A stretch of DNA of 44,683 bases from Lachnospiraceae bacterium (GTDB taxonomy: Bacteria; Bacillota; Clostridia; Lachnospirales; Lachnospiraceae): NCBI GenBank assembly GCA_020859905.1, contig JAJBVI010000160.1, positions 1 to 44,683 of the forward strand. Reading direction: 5' to 3'. Both the position numbers and the translations under genes were made by a program. This document shows, in pieces, positions 37,877 to 44,683 of this stretch. The stretch's first letter is position 1. Each line of letters opens with the position of its first letter. The notes under the pieces are model-generated. The model ran no database searches. It saw only the letters and a list, made by a program, of their open reading frames with translations, and was not told the DNA's origin.

Positions 37877-38480
37877 GATTATGGCGATCGCGGACGCTGC
37901 GTCGCCGGCGCTCTGGGAACACTACAATGACAACAAACTGTACGACACCGATCTGATCGTTTCCTGCGGGGATCTCGATCCCCGCTATCTGTCGTTTCTC
38001 GTCACATGCGTGAATGTGCCTCTTTTGTATGTACACGGAAACCACGACGAATGCTATGACGACATTCCGCCGGACGGATGCATCTGCATCGACGACCGCG
38101 TCTATGTCCATAACGGCATCCGTTTTCTCGGTCTGGGCGGCTGTTTCCCCTACAACAAAGGAAAATATATGTACACGGAAGCACAGATGAAGCGGCGGAT
38201 CCGCAGGGTCTCCCGCCAGATCCGGAAATACGGAGGTCTGGATGTGCTCGTCACACATGCGCCCGTGCGCGGCATCGGGGACGGGGAGGATCTGCCCCAC
38301 CGCGGCTACCAGGCATTCATCCCGCTTCTGGAAAAATGCCGTCCGCCGTATATGCTGCACGGACATGTCCACATGCAGTATGACTATACCCTGAAACGAG
38401 AAAACGAGTATCAGGATACTAAAATTATCAACGCGTACGAGAAATATTTCCTGGAGATACAGGATGGCGGGGCTGTTTAG
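37872..38480 (+). CDS. Metallophosphoesterase (calcineurin-like)
   Basis: A 202-residue cytoplasmic dimetal phosphoesterase. Motifs: IADAAS (first Asp; the usual DxH His is absent), SCGDLDPRY (GD), VHGNHDE (GNHD), THAPVRGIGD (metal His) and LHGHVHMQYD (GHxH). This is close to short YfcE/ycf-type metallophosphoesterases acting on cyclic nucleotides or phosphodiesters; the substrate is open. The start at 37872 has AGGGAGG ten bases upstream and overlaps the stop of the short leader frame, so it is coupled to the BMP-like gene. The missing first-motif His could lower affinity for one metal. Confidence 0.82.
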   Translation: MKIMAIADAASPALWEHYNDNKLYDTDLIVSCGDLDPRYLSFLVTCVNVPLLYVHGNHDECYDDIPPDGCICIDDRVYVHNGIRFLGLGGCFPYNKGKYMYTEAQMKRRIRRVSRQIRKYGGLDVLVTHAPVRGIGDGEDLPHRGYQAFIPLLEKCRPPYMLHGHVHMQYDYTLKRENEYQDTKIINAYEKYFLEIQDGGAV

Positions 38481-38554
38481 GCACTTATAAACATTTTATG
38501 CACAAAATGGCTAAATTTTCATTCCGGTTCACTTACATCACCTCAGAAAAAGCC

Positions 38555-39107
38555 TTAGCGAAGCCCCAGGTAATCGGATATCCCTCCGCAGATGGCCTCC
38601 ACGAGCCGCACCTGGTAATCCTCCGCGCCAAGTAGCGCCTCCTCTGTCGGATTCGAGAGAAAACCGCACTCCACGATCACGGTAGGCACTGATGTCTTTT
38701 TCAGAATGTAGTAGCTCTCATTTGCCTTCGCCGCGCGTGTGTTCGAAGGATCCAGATTCTCGATCAGGCTCCGCTGCAGAGCCTCCGCCAGCGCTTCTCC
38801 CTGCGCGGAATCCCCGTAATAAAACACCTGCGCCCCGCTGACCGCGCTGTCCGTATAGCTGTTCTGGTGGATGCTGACCGCCAGTGCCGGCGCGGTCTCT
38901 TCAATGAGTGCCACACGGTTTTTCAGGTCGGAAACCTTGACACTCTCCGCGTCCTCGTCCGCCAGACTTTCGTCCTCCTCCCGGGTCATCACGACCTCAT
39001 ATCCCAGCTCCTCCAGGGCATCACGCAGTTTTATGGCAATGTCCAGATTGATATCCTTCTCCTTCGTGCCGGACACGCCGACTTTACCGGGGTCATCGCC
39101 GCCGTGG
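38555..39107 (-). pseudogene. N-acetylmuramoyl-L-alanine amidase (CwlD-like), 5' end removed by the element
   Basis: The coding sequence from HGGDDPGKVG onward is a normal amidase_3 domain: KEKDINL (Glu ligand), VSIHQNS (His ligand) and VECGFLSN (catalytic Glu). Upstream of the first zinc His the sequence stops matching: the expected DPGHGG reads PPHGG, and what precedes it is AT-rich and unrelated. The signal/membrane anchor and first strand are therefore missing. An open frame continues to 39250 but its GTG start has no ribosome site. CwlD-type amidases make the muramic delta-lactam of spore cortex; the 5' half should lie at the far side of the element. Confidence 0.82.
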
Positions 39108-39191
39108 GGCGGTAGTAAATTGCGGTAATTTGTACCGATGTGGTACGTTTGATTTTTCTTAATGTGCTTCGTAGAAAATTGAAATCTGCTG

Positions 39192-39220
39192 TTGACAAAT
39201 TTCAAAAGAAATGGTATGTT
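39192..39220 (+). promoter_or_regulatory. Plus-strand promoter at the element end
   Basis: A perfect -35 TTGACA (39192-39197), a 17-bp spacer and -10 TATGTT (39215-39220). The only thing downstream on this strand before a terminator is the structured segment 39227-39300. Confidence 0.65.
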
Positions 39221-39226
39221 TCTTAT

Positions 39227-39300
39227 CAAAGAGAAGCGGTTTTTTGCCACTCGTCTACAATGCTTTGTAGTCCTTGAGTGGGTTGCTCGCTTCTTTTTTT
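39227..39300 (+). ncRNA. Candidate small structured RNA convergent with the nuclease-like gene
   Basis: Three nested stems: AGAAGCG (39232-39238) with CGCTTCT (39288-39294), CCACTC (39247-39252) with GAGTGG (39276-39281), and CTACAA with TTGTAG (39255-39260, 39265-39270), then six T. With the promoter at 39192-39220 this predicts a transcript of about 74 bases. It is antisense to the last codons and stop of the gene ending at 39255. It may instead be only the bidirectional terminator of that gene, but its T-tract is on the plus strand. Confidence 0.5.
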
Positions 39301-39779
39301 ATGTCCAGGAGATCGTATAAATACATCTTTCCAAACACTGTGCAGTTAATAAGCAACCGCGCCGAGTAGATATGATAAATATCCGTCTTAATCTCATTGT
39401 CATAGGTCGGCATTGCAAAACGTGTCTTATAGTAATACCAGCCATTGCCTGCCATAAAAGAATGCTTGTCCTTCTGATTCGCATGAAATTCCTTTTCCGT
39501 TGCGATTTCCAGCATTTCAGGAATTGCTTGAGCAGCATTCGCCTTCACTTTGGCATTTGACCCTTTAAGATGTCTTATGTATTTTGAACCGCTGAACTCA
39601 TCAGGAAATTCATTCCCAATATAAATGATATCCTGTGTTTCCGCGATTGTAACAATTTCACCAACATATTTCTTTAAATAACTCTCAACCGCATCCCAGT
39701 CAATACTATGCTTGTTTTTAAAAATAACCTCAGGCAAAACAACGATCTTATGACCATTTTCATCCATTACAATCTTCAT
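39255..39779 (-). CDS. PBECR/MuF-type nuclease-toxin-like protein
   Basis: A 174-residue protein with no signal or membrane segment. It resembles the stand-alone domain found at the C-terminus of MuF-type phage proteins and polymorphic toxins, the barnase-EndoU-colicin-RelE-like group (IIYIGNEFPDEFSGSKY, KANAAQAIPEMLEIAT, FMAGNGWYYYKTRFAMP, KMYLYDLLDIKKEASNPL). If correct it would be an RNase-like toxin, but I cannot point to catalytic residues and the family call rests on memory of the pattern. It is 35 bp downstream of the recombinase on the same strand, so probably co-transcribed. A candidate small RNA converges on its 3' end. Confidence 0.55.
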   Translation of the reverse strand: MKIVMDENGHKIVVLPEVIFKNKHSIDWDAVESYLKKYVGEIVTIAETQDIIYIGNEFPDEFSGSKYIRHLKGSNAKVKANAAQAIPEMLEIATEKEFHANQKDKHSFMAGNGWYYYKTRFAMPTYDNEIKTDIYHIYSARLLINCTVFGKMYLYDLLDIKKEASNPLKDYKAL

Positions 39780-39813
39780 ATTCTTTTATTCACCTTCTTT
39801 TTCGTCCATGACT

Positions 39814-41412
39814 TTAATTTTCATAGGTATCCGGAAATAAATGTGCCAGCTCGTCTGAAAAGTTGTAAGTGATTTTGATTCTGTGATCCTCGTAAACCCG
39901 AATCTCATGGATCATCTCCACTACCATATCCCGATCCAGCTTTTCTACATTCCGGAATGTGAGCAGCCGTTTTACCCACGGGCTTTCCAGAACATCTCCG
40001 GCAGTCCTCTTTTCTGACTGGCGCTCCAGATCTTCCATCTGCTTTGTAAGCATTTCTTCTTTTTTTACATAATCCTGTCTGTAAGCGACAAACTCGTCTT
40101 TGGAAATCAGACCCTCCCGGTAATCCTCATAAACTGCTTTTTTGAGGTTTCTCAACTTCTCCAGTTCCGCGGACAAACGGTTTCTTTCATTTCCGTTTTG
40201 ACGTTTTGCGAAAGCCTCCTGCGCCTGATTCTGCTCAAGCAATTCCTGTAGATTCTCCGCACTCTCTATGATTGCGTTCAGGTCGTTTCGTATCACATTC
40301 TCAAGAACCGAATATGGAATTGCATGTGCGCTGCAATACTGTCTGCCGGAGCGGACATAAGTTCCGCAATAGTAGTTGATATTCCCGGCGCCATGTCCGG
40401 ACGATCCGATTTTCTTCACCAGCGCCCTGCCGCAGTCCCCGCATTTCAGGAATCCGGCAAACACAGACATATTAGAGTTCAGGTCAAGCTCGCGCGTCCG
40501 GCGTCCCAATAATTCCTGTGTCTTCTGCCATGTTTCCGGATCAATGATGGCCTCGTATGTATGCTCCACAATAATCCAGTCCTCTTTGTCCACACTCTTC
40601 TGCCTGCCCTTCATCCGCTGGGTTTTCCTGCCCTGCACCATATTTCCGGCATACATCTCATTTTTCAGAATGCGGTTCACCGTGGAATACGTCCAGTAAG
40701 AAGTGCTTTCCAGCTTCCGGCTGTTCCGATAATTTTCGCCATTCATCCGCTTATATTCGGACGGACACACAATCCCATCTTCATTCAACGCTTTCGCAAT
40801 GCTGTTTTTCCCATATCCGCTGACATACATTTTGAAAATCCGGCGCACCACATTCGCGGCGTAATCGTCAATCACCAGCTTATTTTTGTCAATGGGAGAT
40901 TTCCGATAACCATAGGATGCAAACGCCCCGATAAACTCCCCTGCCTTCTGCTTGGTTTTCATGGAGGCATGGACTTTCTTTGAGATGTCCCTGGCGTACT
41001 GCTCGTTGAAAATATTTTTGATCGGCAGCAGGATATCATAAGCCTGTTTCATGCTGTCAATATTATCTGTGATAGCGATAAACCGCACATCGTTATCCGG
41101 AAAATAACGCTCCAGATACCTGCCTGTCTCAATATAATCCCTCCCGAAGCGGGATAGGTCCTTGACAATGACACAATTTACTTTTCCATCCTCGATATCA
41201 TCCATCATTCTCAGAAAAGAAGGTCTTTGAAAGCTAAGACCCGTAAATCCATCGTCCACATAAGTATCATAGACAACAAATTCGGTCCGTCCTTTCAGAT
41301 AATCCGCGATCAGTTTCCTCTGGTTTCCGATGCTGTCACTTTCTGCCTTATCACCATCCTCTCTGGATAACCTGATATATTCAGCTACGTTGAAAAGAGT
41401 TTGTTTCTTCAT
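39814..41412 (-). CDS. Large serine recombinase (site-specific integrase)
   Basis: About 532 residues. The N-terminal resolvase domain has EYIRLSREDGD with the catalytic Ser (about residue 15), DDGFTGLSFQRPSF and VKDLSRFGRDYIETGRYLE. A recombinase domain follows (YGYRKSPIDKNKLVIDDYAA, SIAKALNEDGI, WTYSTVNRILKNEMYAGN), then a zinc ribbon (CGDCGRALVKK ... YYCGTY ... YCSAHAI) and a long coiled coil (about 390-475). This full set is that of phage and ICE integrases such as TnpX/phiC31 types. The ATG at 41412 has AGGTGAG close by; a GTG at 41421 is an alternative. The upstream small gene overlaps it. Confidence 0.93.
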   Translation of the reverse strand: MKKQTLFNVAEYIRLSREDGDKAESDSIGNQRKLIADYLKGRTEFVVYDTYVDDGFTGLSFQRPSFLRMMDDIEDGKVNCVIVKDLSRFGRDYIETGRYLERYFPDNDVRFIAITDNIDSMKQAYDILLPIKNIFNEQYARDISKKVHASMKTKQKAGEFIGAFASYGYRKSPIDKNKLVIDDYAANVVRRIFKMYVSGYGKNSIAKALNEDGIVCPSEYKRMNGENYRNSRKLESTSYWTYSTVNRILKNEMYAGNMVQGRKTQRMKGRQKSVDKEDWIIVEHTYEAIIDPETWQKTQELLGRRTRELDLNSNMSVFAGFLKCGDCGRALVKKIGSSGHGAGNINYYCGTYVRSGRQYCSAHAIPYSVLENVIRNDLNAIIESAENLQELLEQNQAQEAFAKRQNGNERNRLSAELEKLRNLKKAVYEDYREGLISKDEFVAYRQDYVKKEEMLTKQMEDLERQSEKRTAGDVLESPWVKRLLTFRNVEKLDRDMVVEMIHEIRVYEDHRIKITYNFSDELAHLFPDTYEN

Positions 41413-41417
41413 GTTGC

Positions 41418-41609
41418 TCACCTGCGGGCCGCTGTCCCTGTGGCTATTGTACCGCAGGAAGCGACATTTTCCAATTCATTTTTACAAGTTTCATCCGGTT
41501 TTTGCAGATGCGTCCGGATCAGACGGCGGAGCATTTCCTCCGACGTGCAGCGGGAGAGAAATTCTCTTTCGATCACATATGATATTTTTTCGGATTTCTT
41601 TTCTCTCAC
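41418..41609 (-). CDS. Small protein overlapping the recombinase start
   Basis: A 63-residue frame starting at a GTG (41609) with AGGAG seven bases upstream; its stop overlaps the first possible recombinase start (AGGTGAGC). The sequence is helical and charged (EKISYVIEREFLSRCTSEEMLRRLIRTHLQ). Small genes of this type often precede serine recombinases in Firmicute elements, possibly as a directionality or expression partner, but I know no function. The good ribosome site and the overlap make it likely real. Confidence 0.6.
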   Translation of the reverse strand: MREKKSEKISYVIEREFLSRCTSEEMLRRLIRTHLQKPDETCKNELENVASCGTIATGTAARR

Positions 41610-41742
41610 CTTATGTCTCCTGTTTCGCTATCTGTAAAACATATGGGACAGGGCTTATCCTATATACGTTCTATTTGTTTGAAAATTCGTTTATAGATTA
41701 AAAATTTTGGTGTTGAGAATTAAGAAAAATCAATGGAATCAG

Positions 41743-41790
41743 CAATCTTTTTAATCTGCATGTTTTTGAAGAAGATGCAGATTAAGATTG
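41743..41790. promoter_or_regulatory. Long inverted repeat overlapping the fic -35 box
   Basis: CAATCTT(TTT)AATCTGCAT (41743-41761) pairs with ATGCAGATTAAGATTG (41775-41790), 16 pairs with a three-T bulge. The right arm ends inside the -35 box, so a bound dimer would block the promoter. Confidence 0.6.
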
Positions 41791-41816
41791 ACTTTGAGTT
41801 TGATCGATGATATTAT
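41788..41816 (+). promoter_or_regulatory. Promoter for the fic gene
   Basis: -35 TTGACT (41788-41793), a 17-bp spacer and -10 TATTAT (41811-41816). Confidence 0.75.
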
Positions 41817-41842
41817 AGGGCATTGAAGGAAAGGAGATTGCC

Positions 41843-42919
41843 ATGTTAAAAATGATTACTGAGAGAACAGCTGATTACAATGCGAACACTTTTATTAATG
41901 AACTTTTTGAGGCATCGAAATCGTTAGGCATACTTGAGGAAAAAATTTCCGGATATCATTTTAACAGTATTTTAATTCCGATGTTTCAGAATAAAGAGGC
42001 AATTTCTTCCATGCAGATTGAAGGAACTCAAACTACAATTTCTGATGTATTCGAAGACAGGATTAACACCACAAAAGACACCAATGATAAAGTTATGCTT
42101 GAATACCGAAATCATACTCAGGCGCTTCTTTATGGCAAAGATTATTTGAGGGGAAATGGCTTTACTGATGATTTTTTGAAAAAATTGCATCACATCATGA
42201 TGAAGGGAATTCTTCCGCCGCAAAAGAAGAAAAGCATAGGCCGCTACAAAAATAAAGATAACTTTATTGTTAACAGTGTTGGAACCGTAGTATTTACACC
42301 TCCTTCTTACACAGAAACAAGCAAATATATGCGCGAACTGACCGCATTTATGAATTGCAGTACAGATGGAATAAATCCGCTTATAAAAGCTGCCATAATA
42401 CATTCACAGTTCGAGTCAATCCATCCTTTCGAAGATGGAAACGGACGCGTAGGACGTCTTTTGGTCAGTCTGTATTTATATAAAGCGAAAGTGATTAATT
42501 TCCCATTCTTTTATATTAGTGAAGCTATTAGTCAGGATAAAGCTGTCTATTACAACAAGCTGACGGATTCCCGCATGAATAGTTATGATGATTGGATTAA
42601 ATTCTTCCTTCAAAAATGTATTGTTCAGGCAAACAACCATATTGGCTATATTGATTCTTTAAACAAGTTATATGAGAGAACCAAGTCTGTGGTAAAAGAA
42701 TCCATAAACAGTCCTAAATTTGATCAGATTATTGAATGTATTTTTACGCAGCCGATTATCACGGTGGCATATCTTGCAGACCAACTTTCCGTAAGTTCGG
42801 GTCAGGCAAAAAGATACATTGACAAGCTGGAGGATAAGCAAATTCTACTTGGTGATGATCGTAAGCGCGGACGTAAATATATTTTTGTAGAACTTTTGGA
42901 TTTGGCAAGACGAATCTGA
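41843..42919 (+). CDS. Fic-domain protein (class II, with winged helix)
   Basis: A 358-residue Fic protein. The active-site motif HPFEDGNGRVGR (about residue 195) is intact, so it should transfer AMP or a similar group from a nucleotide to a target hydroxyl. The inhibitory helix SMQIEGT is in the N-terminal part (about 55-61), matching the (S/T)xxxE(G/N) motif of self-inhibited class II proteins. The C-terminus is a winged helix-turn-helix (VAYLADQLSVSSGQAKRYIDKLE), usual for this Fic group, which could bind the inverted repeat at its own promoter. Start at 41843 with AAAGGAG upstream. The target is unknown; anti-phage and stabilisation roles are both possible. Confidence 0.93.
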   Translation: MLKMITERTADYNANTFINELFEASKSLGILEEKISGYHFNSILIPMFQNKEAISSMQIEGTQTTISDVFEDRINTTKDTNDKVMLEYRNHTQALLYGKDYLRGNGFTDDFLKKLHHIMMKGILPPQKKKSIGRYKNKDNFIVNSVGTVVFTPPSYTETSKYMRELTAFMNCSTDGINPLIKAAIIHSQFESIHPFEDGNGRVGRLLVSLYLYKAKVINFPFFYISEAISQDKAVYYNKLTDSRMNSYDDWIKFFLQKCIVQANNHIGYIDSLNKLYERTKSVVKESINSPKFDQIIECIFTQPIITVAYLADQLSVSSGQAKRYIDKLEDKQILLGDDRKRGRKYIFVELLDLARRI

Positions 42920-42920
42920 T

Positions 42921-43050
42921 AAGGAGGTGGCTCTATTGATTGTAAAAAATAAAACGCATTGAAAACTGCAGCAACAGGTTTCAATACGTTTCATCTGTGG
43001 ATGTGCTATGCACAACCGCTTACTGGTGTCAGTATAGCACATCCTTTCTT
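42921..43050 (+). other. Ribosome-site-like sequence and two consecutive strong stem-loops
   Basis: After the fic stop lies AAGGAGG with a TTG eight bases later, opening an 8-codon frame. It is followed by stem-loop 1 (AAACGCATTGAAA with TTTCAATACGTTT, 42952-42991, one mismatch, inner CTG/CAG) and stem-loop 2 (GGATGTGCTAT with ATAGCACATCC, 42999-43044, perfect, 24-base loop) then TTTCTT. The second may terminate the fic transcript. The set resembles the 3' region of small type I toxin loci, but no toxin frame is present. Confidence 0.5.
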
Positions 43051-43111
43051 AAGTGACAATTGGCAATTTATACAAAATGCACAAATCTCGCCCTGTTTAC
43101 AGGGAGAAAGG

Positions 43112-43744
43112 ATGATATTTATGACATCAAAAGAAATGCGGGAAAACCCGCTGTTTATGAGGAATAATTTTAAAACATCAGGGAGATGGGAACTTCCGTT
43201 AATAAAAAGACAGAAGTTGAACTCAGAAGATATTGCGCTCATCCCATACTCAGATACTCGGGCACATGATTCGGCAAGCAATACGCAAAGGGGAGTTCAT
43301 TTCTTTGTTGACGATTATCGCTTTACCGGAATTTATAATAATCCGGAGAAAAGCCCTGGGCGTTTGATGCAATATGCGTTTCTGCTGTCACCTGATTATT
43401 CCACTTATGCGGATATGAACGACTGGAGACAATTAGAGAGTGTAGCACATAGCCGATGGGTTGGAGCTTTTTGGCAAAGTAAAGAGGCTATCGTGTATCC
43501 GACTATCAGCTGGAGCACTCCATCAAGTTATGACTTTTGTTTTGAAGGAATTGAAAGGGGATCAATTGTAGCTGTAGGTATGATTGGATGCAAACAAAAC
43601 AAGATTAGTTTCATGCGTGGTTACAATGTTATGCTTGATAAAATTGATCCTGAGAAGGTTATTGTTTTTGGACGACCATATCCGGAGATGAAAGGCAGCC
43701 TTATTACGGTAGACTATTCAGATTCCAGAAGGGAGGCTGTATGA
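43112..43744 (+). CDS. DUF4417 family protein
   Basis: A 210-residue cytoplasmic protein of the DUF4417 family, frequent on Firmicute phages and integrative elements and of unknown function. Family blocks are clear: NPLFMRNNFKTSGRWELPLIK, cut here as separate motifs NPLFMRNNF and GRWELPLIK; VHFFVDDYRFTGIYNNPE; YAFLLSPDYSTYADM; NRW-like HSRWVGAFWQ; PTISW; GIERGSIVAVGMIGCK and FMRGYNVML. The start at 43112 has GGGAG five bases upstream; a longer open frame begins inside the stem-loops and is not supported. It is the first gene of a tight operon. Confidence 0.85.
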   Translation: MIFMTSKEMRENPLFMRNNFKTSGRWELPLIKRQKLNSEDIALIPYSDTRAHDSASNTQRGVHFFVDDYRFTGIYNNPEKSPGRLMQYAFLLSPDYSTYADMNDWRQLESVAHSRWVGAFWQSKEAIVYPTISWSTPSSYDFCFEGIERGSIVAVGMIGCKQNKISFMRGYNVMLDKIDPEKVIVFGRPYPEMKGSLITVDYSDSRREAV

Positions 43745-43745
43745 T

Positions 43746-44144
43746 ATGGGAGGCAGAGGAACATTTGCTGCGGGGAATCCGGTGCCTTATACATACAAAA
43801 AAGTGGGTGATGTAGAAGGTGTTAAGGTATTGGAAGGAATCAATGGAAAACATGGACTTCCAGAGTCCTCGCATTCAAGTGAAGCATATATTAAGCTCAA
43901 ACCAGACGGAACATTTCATGAAATGCGGTTTTATGATAAAGATCATGTTCTGTATATGGAGATTGCGTACCATCCGGAGTATTCACTGACTGGTGATCGT
44001 CACACTCCTGTTTTGCACTATCATTTGTATGATAGCAGCTTCAGCAAAAATAAAACAGGTGCTTTTTCCAGAAGTAAAGCGGCACGGCTGACAGAGGAAA
44101 TGAAATTAAAGTATAAAAAGTATTTCAAGGGGGTGAGCGTATGA
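43746..44144 (+). CDS. MGGRG-type small mobile-element protein
   Basis: A 132-residue protein starting two bases after the DUF4417 stop, with GGGAGG nine bases upstream. The glycine-rich beginning MGGRGTFAAGN is seen at the start of several phage/ICE proteins. The remainder has SSHSSEAYIKLKPDGTFHEMRFYDKD, with an His-rich stretch (HTPVLHYHLYD) near residue 95 and a basic C-terminus. A polymorphic-toxin-like or nuclease-like fold is possible from the HYHLYD-type His pattern, but I do not recognise it firmly. It is followed by an overlapping gene, which could be its partner or immunity protein. Confidence 0.65.
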   Translation: MGGRGTFAAGNPVPYTYKKVGDVEGVKVLEGINGKHGLPESSHSSEAYIKLKPDGTFHEMRFYDKDHVLYMEIAYHPEYSLTGDRHTPVLHYHLYDSSFSKNKTGAFSRSKAARLTEEMKLKYKKYFKGVSV

Positions 44145-44422
44145 TTAATGGATCTCCAAACGAATTTGTGGATAGGATTTATTCCTGCCAGGACACAGTA
44201 TTCATTTATAAGGGTATTAAATACTGGTTTCAAGGGTATATGCCATCTGATCATTCTGTACACATGGAAATATTTCAATATCATCCCTCTGACGAAAAAT
44301 GGTTATGGAAATATGACGGGAAAAGCATTGAGGAGTGTCAGTATGCTTTCTTATCTGCTCAGATTTTTGACGGTAAAACTTTTTGGGATGCTGAGCAGGA
44401 AATCGTATGGGTGGATAGTTGA
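44141..44422 (+). CDS. Small hypothetical protein, coupled to the previous gene
   Basis: A 93-residue acidic protein, start overlapping the previous stop by 4 bp (ATGA), with GGGGGTGAG upstream. Aromatic-rich motifs VFIYKGIKYWFQGYMP and WLWKYDGKS; C-terminus AEQEIVWVDS. No membrane helix or signal. I do not recognise a family. The order of a basic His-rich protein followed by an overlapping small acidic protein is the usual geometry of toxin and immunity, but this is only context. Confidence 0.65.
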   Translation: MINGSPNEFVDRIYSCQDTVFIYKGIKYWFQGYMPSDHSVHMEIFQYHPSDEKWLWKYDGKSIEECQYAFLSAQIFDGKTFWDAEQEIVWVDS

Positions 44423-44494
44423 TCGCTTCTCTACGTGTATATGAGTCGATTCTCTATTTGTGAGAACCGGATTGTATTATCAGACGAGGTGACC

Positions 44495-44608
44495 ATGAAA
44501 ATAAAGTCCTTTGTTCTTGAGGAATGCAGAAAATTCCAGTATAATGTACAAAGAATTTCAGCTTTGTATCAGATTCCGGTATCGGAATTTGTTTATGTAA
44601 ATCAATGA
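44495..44608 (+). CDS. 37-residue small protein
   Basis: A short frame starting at 44495 with GAGGTG three to four bases upstream and ending at 44608. The sequence (MKIKSFVLEECRKF ... RISALYQIPVSEFVYVNQ) looks like a short helix plus a turn. It continues the same strand and direction as the cargo operon. Real small gene or fragment; no function assigned. Confidence 0.5.
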   Translation: MKIKSFVLEECRKFQYNVQRISALYQIPVSEFVYVNQ

Positions 44609-44621
44609 GGGAGACCTTTAT

Positions 44622-44678
44622 ATGCCCACACTAGCGGTAGTTTACAAGTTACGTTCGAGCAGAGTCCACGACTGCTGA
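44622..44678 (+). CDS. Very short frame at the window edge
   Basis: An 18-residue frame beginning 13 bases after the previous stop, with GGGAG upstream of its ATG. It is reported only because of the ribosome site; it may be noise or the start of something interrupted. Confidence 0.2.
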   Translation: MPTLAVVYKLRSSRVHDC

Positions 44679-44683
44679 TTTTA

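Follow-up and report, generated by a model that had tools for sequence, protein, structure and literature searches.

The closest described systems are elements that interrupt sporulation genes and are removed as development proceeds. The skin elements of C. difficile and B. subtilis split sigK and encode their own large serine recombinase; skin is prophage-like and measures 48 kb in B. subtilis (PMC517825), and the C. difficile element has a small recombination directionality factor, the 72-residue CD1234, under the control of sigma-E and SpoIIID (PMC5025042). The gin element in gerE of Bacillus cereus ATCC10987 is a 28.6-kb element with three recombinase genes and one target, and its serine recombinase is accompanied by an additional factor (GirC, GirX) (PMC5595907). 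Each discovery of such an element has so far concerned a single gene in a few strains. The window analysed here is a stretch of 44,683 nucleotides that makes up the whole of a draft contig (C223) of a Lachnospiraceae bacterium, and sequence comparison shows that its cwlD gene is interrupted, at the codons of the catalytic motif, by an intervening element of which the contig contains one end. The reading favoured here, at a probability of about 0.8, is that this element is one of a group of non-phage, skin-like sporulation intervening elements that switch between targets and whose excision in the mother cell rebuilds the interrupted gene.

On the minus strand, homology to Amidase_3 and CwlD spans 183 residues, from the His codon (CAC) at position 39106 to the stop codon at 38555, and so the break lies within the interval 39100-39130 in which the original prediction, made from the letters of the DNA, had placed it. 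The predicted identity of the gene, a CwlD-type cortex amidase, is supported by matches to Pfam Amidase_3 (E 1e-46) and to TIGR02883 spore_cwlD, to which the alignment runs from profile position 9 of 189. The 3' part alone scores 204.2 bits against the curated TIGR02883 cut-off of 221.55 bits, and the joined gene of the related genome G003 scores 229.2 bits, above it. As had also been predicted, the homology breaks at the HGG zinc-ligand codons with Pro replacing Gly: the junction reads ...VIVIDAGHGGDDPG in intact same-genus genes and ...NLLPPHGGDDPG in the window, indicating that the Pro is derived from the element. In 20 of 47 relatives, the open frame that runs from the 3' half into the element ends within 3 codons. 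Since this frame is not conserved, the 3' half is an orphan without a natural start, and an alternative start inside the element is ruled out. A metallophosphoesterase gene and an adjacent gene for a 670-residue protein flank the 3' half and also adjoin cwlD in intact relatives, indicating that the 3' half has kept its original genomic position. A short repeat at 38480-38531, immediately beyond the 3' end of cwlD, recurs at 6 other places in the genome with 79-88% identity. The recombinase gene ends at 39814, in agreement with the predicted distance of 0.7 kb inside the insert. Because the window is the whole contig, and its end at 44683 is inside the element, the other end of the element lies outside the window; the cwlD 5' half and its usual upstream neighbour gene are both absent from the draft assembly of this genome. 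The host has sporulation genes, as had been expected: SpoIVA is found above its cut-off in the window genome (G000; E 1e-184), together with sigma-K-type factors that score below the sigma-K cut-off in a family search too unspecific for naming individual sigma factors.

Features of the split cwlD gene and of the intervening element in the window (positions are those of the window)
Feature	Position	Strand	Basis
3' part of cwlD, HGG zinc-ligand codons to stop	38555..39106	-	Pfam Amidase_3, TIGR02883, neighbour genes
Intervening element	39107..44683		Left end exact; right extent inferred, beyond contig
Shared crossover core CACGG (CAYGG in relatives)	39102..39106	-	CAYGG flanks complete amidase elements on both sides
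Element-end arm, consensus TTtgCGCAAnTnACanCC next to core	39107..39126	-	Conserved at 47 junctions; inverted-repeat partner at 5' junctions
174-residue accessory ORF without family	39255..39779	-	Relatives in sister elements L073, L093 and in G016
Large serine recombinase, 535 residues	39814..41421	-	Resolvase, Recombinase and zinc-ribbon domains
Small ORF, 63 residues, candidate recombination directionality factor, overlapping recombinase start	41418..41609	-	Conserved position
Promoter-like motif GTATATA-N15-CATATGTT before small ORF	41638..41667	-	Motif count against shuffles
Fic-domain protein, probable cargo	41843..42919	+	Element membership from position only
DUF4417 protein, probable cargo	42959..43744	+	Element membership from position only
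Two small ORFs without family (43746-44144, 44141-44422), probable cargo	43746..44422	+	Membership from position only

The catalytic motif of cwlD, in the form I/V-D-x-GHG-x-DPG or close to it, is unbroken in 11 same-genus genomes (G006, G009, G010, G011, G012, G013, G014, G015, G017 and G019, plus G007, where a frameshift lies further along the gene) and is split at exactly the codon of the window in 4 more. The element end is of the window type in G016 and G001, and another element type is present in G003 and G008. With four other genomes interrupted at this codon, by elements of two types, the break at 39106 is not due to chance. G003 and G008 carry a complete element, with the two cwlD halves on one contig, about 3.75 kb apart; the stretch that separates them contains a small ORF, a serine recombinase gene, amtB and glnK. 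In G016 the cwlD 5' half adjoins its native upstream neighbour and is followed by a small ORF and a recombinase. The amidase 5' half predicted for the other end of the element is thus found in G003, G008 and G016, and it recurs in about 20 further loci. As judged from these alignments, cwlD is shown to be split at its GHGG codons, and complete sister elements end in both gene halves, in frame. The notion that the junction is an assembly artefact or a contig chimera draws on the draft state of the window contig and on two G016 contigs (C54 = L149 and C190 = L046) in which near-identical elements are joined to halves of different amidases, and it is hardly credible: the same junction occurs in independent genomes, complete elements are contained in one contig, and the hosts include cultured isolates, for example L108 (on a 2.4 Mb scaffold) and L120 (on a 3.1 Mb contig), so that the family as a whole contradicts such an origin and it is rejected. 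On the G016 contig C54 the cwlD 5' half is joined through the element to a CwlC-type 3' half, which could be an assembly crossing of the two near-identical elements or a real exchange. The G016 contig joins are left out as evidence because the near-identical elements may have crossed in assembly.

The element end TTtgCGCAAnTnACanCC precedes CAYGG at 47 amidase 3' junctions, and at 23 junctions on the 5' side GAtGCnGGgCAYGG, which belongs to the gene, leads into an element arm with TtGCGgAA. The element ends therefore form an imperfect inverted repeat around the core. Of 19 complete pairs, 16 have the same CAYGG core at either end, and the others differ at the C/T position alone. The complete elements that were measured are 1.8-9.2 kb long, and their cargo varies: amtB-glnK, a ParE toxin with a RelB antitoxin, an ABC transporter, a D-Ala-D-X ligase with a D-2-hydroxyacid dehydrogenase, PTS enzyme I and nicotinate phosphoribosyltransferase have been identified. 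In the window, the Fic and DUF4417 proteins, encoded on the opposite strand beyond the small ORF, presumably belong to the element. The accessory ORF between the junction and the recombinase matches no NCBIfam or PHROGs family and has sub-threshold matches to Pfam only. The amtB-glnK pair lies inside a removable element at L047:15242-16859, and the same pair is present in L054; G003 and G008 have no amtB besides the element copy at the threshold used, and amtB is found on other contigs in seven same-genus genomes, including that of the window. The D-Ala-D-X ligase and D-2-hydroxyacid dehydrogenase genes form a van-like pair in a cwlD element (L094:10865-12848), and L109 has a similar ligase. 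ParE-type toxin genes occur in short amidase elements at L105:7327-7641 and L106:7041-7678, the latter with a RelB antitoxin, and are possibly addiction modules.

Alignment of three recombinases retrieved the 80 nearest loci from a collection of species genomes, and the abutting genes were classified by tblastn with a panel of gene halves, by motif scans and by reading. A half of a spore-wall enzyme gene abuts 76 of the 80 recombinases. The target is of CwlD type in 24 loci, some of these genes being divergent paralogs, and of CwlC type in 19 (Amidase_3, with SPOR in the one tested, the joined L106 gene, where the SPOR domain follows Amidase_3 as expected of a CwlC-type protein). Another Amidase_3 gene is the target in 8 loci, with the element inverted in 2, and a PdaB-like gene in 25, with the element inverted relative to the gene in 20 and direct in 5. 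No target was assigned in the remaining 4 loci, 2 of which end at a contig edge. The label PdaB-like is used because two joined proteins score 218.9 and 225.9 bits, below the TIGR02764 PdaB cut-off of 237.4, although no other model scores higher for either of them. A further break in the pdaB 3' half, around residues 29-32 or 115-117, is present in L147, L145, L103 and L084 and may be due to a second intervening element in one gene. The abutting gene halves show that one recombinase family occupies CwlD, CwlC-type and PdaB-like genes. The family is mostly found in Lachnospiraceae, cultured isolates included (for example L095, L105, L108, L117, L118 and L119). Among cultured hosts, Lachnospiraceae bacterium 3-2, Blautia sp. 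An249 and Lachnospiraceae bacterium 10-1 have the whole element on a single contig. None of 67 control recombinases from viral contigs (31-50% identical, 3 kb flanks) has a match to the panel of gene halves or is accompanied by the small ORF, and the same holds for the paralogs of the recombinase in the genome from which the window comes. In phage and plasmid records, the identity of relatives does not exceed 39%, and among the related plasmid, phage and viral-contig recombinases seen, none lies at a half of a spore-wall gene. By PHROGs, no phage structural or packaging genes are found in the visible part of the window element, the right end of which is off the contig. A prophage origin is disfavoured by the lack of a close phage recombinase and of recognised structural genes.

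Halves joined at the shared core are open and in frame in 23 of 23 loci (14 amidase and 9 PdaB-like), which include G003 and several cultured isolates; the joins in L071 and L147 stop early, at a contig end or a second break. The amidase 3' halves examined, 47 in all, are full length with an open frame of at least 160 codons, and the eight flagged as not intact, by an over-strict motif test only, are all at least 184 residues long. In L094, L140 and L109 the interrupted cwlD 3' half has an omega of 0.025-0.035, a sign of strong purifying selection. The synonymous divergence in these three loci is 0.28-0.76 for the recombinase and 0.18-1.65 for the 3' half, so that element and host gene have diverged together, and such a low omega of an interrupted 3' half is hard to explain unless an intact product is made at some time. 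The short 5' halves are less constrained (omega 0.19-0.49). Between the window and G016, dS is 0.20 for the recombinase and 1.32 for the host gene, so that the element of the window lineage is recent and arrived by transfer, and selection on the window's own copy is unreadable.

These data bear on the alternative that a plain site-specific mobile element uses the catalytic-motif codons as attB and disables the gene without any sporulation control, the split genes being pseudogenes or their loss being tolerated. Spore-former status varies among gut Firmicutes, a point in its favour. On a recombinase tree of 82 rows the target labels need at least 34 changes (mean of shuffles 46.9; minimum 6), and close recombinases differ in target, such as L079 in cwlD and L081 in pdaB. 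So many changes indicate that the elements are transferred and take up new targets, all from a small set of genes; together with recombinases that are close across hosts whose genes have diverged more, they indicate that the elements are mobile, as this alternative also has it. However, it would leave unexplained the low omega of long-interrupted cwlD genes and the open frames of all orphan 3' halves, and the targets are almost only spore-wall genes even though other Amidase_3 paralogs exist in these genomes. A plain mobile element without developmental control is therefore an unlikely explanation.

A candidate control region precedes the recombinase. A short ORF of about 45-65 residues is found in this position in 71 of 83 loci; it matches no family in NCBIfam or PHROGs, and its position and size make it a candidate recombination directionality factor. 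Of 71 loci, 42 have the motif GCATATT-GGATAAGC-...-CRTATGTT upstream of it in relaxed form and 23 in strict form, where shuffled sequences give 1.4 and 0; the motif is missing from about 40% of the loci. Its spacing of 15 presumably fits a sigma-E promoter, with a -10 element that departs from what we take to be the usual sigma-E consensus, and its GGATAAG resembles, with one change, what we take to be the SpoIIID box. The region upstream of intact cwlD, ATAGGACAA...CATACSTTTTAAAG, looks similar by eye, as an unscored comparison, to ATAGGATAA...CATATGTTTTACAG of the window. Mother-cell control may be exerted through the recombinase or the directionality factor. Purifying selection, the near-exclusive targeting of spore-wall genes, the candidate directionality factor and the promoter-like motif lead us to infer that the interruption is reversed in a regulated manner.

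In the proposed mechanism of mother-cell excision, a mother-cell promoter would drive the small ORF and the recombinase during sporulation, and the large serine recombinase would act on the two att sites that share the core CAYGG. The element would then leave as a circle, and cwlD, pdaB or another amidase gene would be rebuilt in the mother cell. The spore genome would keep the element because the mother cell dies. Between hosts, the element would move and could switch among target genes, since these genes share the att motif. In B. subtilis, cwlD is under the control of sigma-E and cwlC encodes a late mother-cell hydrolase, a timing known for this species only (PMC517825), and both would fit the removal of the element from a doomed cell. 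A search of 295 genomes and of viral contigs for attP patterns gave no match, and thus neither an excised circle nor a rebuilt gene.

Two loci do not fit simple excision and look invertible. In both L100 (7025-9946) and L082 (1953-4720), the pdaB 3' half is followed by the small ORF and the recombinase; in L100 the element-end arm meets the 5' half of pdaB, which lies on the opposite strand, and in L082 an apparently complete attP inverted repeat, a palindrome, lies beside the recombinase, so that the two resemble an invertible pdaB variant in its split and its unsplit state. Such states would be expected of a vegetative on/off switch, in which excision and re-integration or inversion generates heterogeneity in sporulation or germination. 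As a general account of the family, phase variation of this kind is very improbable, since L100 and L082 come from different genomes, most loci have the direct excision layout and inversion layouts are few.

With excision in the mother cell as the preferred reading, a broader picture is rather probable: a single mobile family specialised in spore-wall genes of the mother cell, which changes between CwlD, CwlC-type and PdaB-like genes as targets, brings along cargo that is useful or addictive (the ammonium transporter, toxin-antitoxin and van-like genes), persists because it is excised only in a doomed cell, and has given rise to invertible offshoots. Here one recombinase clade is seen in several spore-wall genes of many uncultured and cultured gut Lachnospiraceae. 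Close recombinases in different targets make retargeting, and the tie of a mobile element to host development, open to experiment, as is the dependence of spore-cortex maturation and germination in gut commensals on programmed DNA excision. In surveys of gene content, cwlD or pdaB may be recorded, in error, as missing from these organisms. The open-access papers searched contained no earlier description of an interruption of cwlD, cwlC or pdaB.

The family shares with skin the split sporulation gene, a large serine recombinase encoded by the element and, in its candidate small ORF, a possible counterpart of the C. difficile directionality factor (PMC5025042). The two parts of the gene can be joined in frame in G003, G008 and others, the window showing the 3' side only; the elements have their own site-specific recombinase and short att repeats, and SpoIVA attests to a sporulation programme in the host. 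In contrast to skin, the present elements have no recognised phage structural genes, are compact and target spore-wall enzymes instead of sigK. Like gin, they are non-phage elements in a mother-cell gene, with a serine recombinase and a candidate additional factor (PMC5595907), whereas they have one recombinase, are compact and occupy several targets in many hosts. SPbeta in spsM, vfbin in spoVFB and yin in yabG likewise interrupt sporulation genes (PMC4191935, PMC10747680), but these are prophages or prophage-like and sit in other target genes, and YokA of SPbeta, which with TnpX provides the nearest solved structures of the window recombinase, is only distantly related to it (E 6e-17). TnpX, TndX and CcrA/B/C are large serine recombinases of the same protein superfamily, but they belong to transmissible transposons or cassettes. 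The family described here is thus probably a variant of the skin-like kind that is non-phage as far as seen, compact, and directed at several targets by one recombinase clade.
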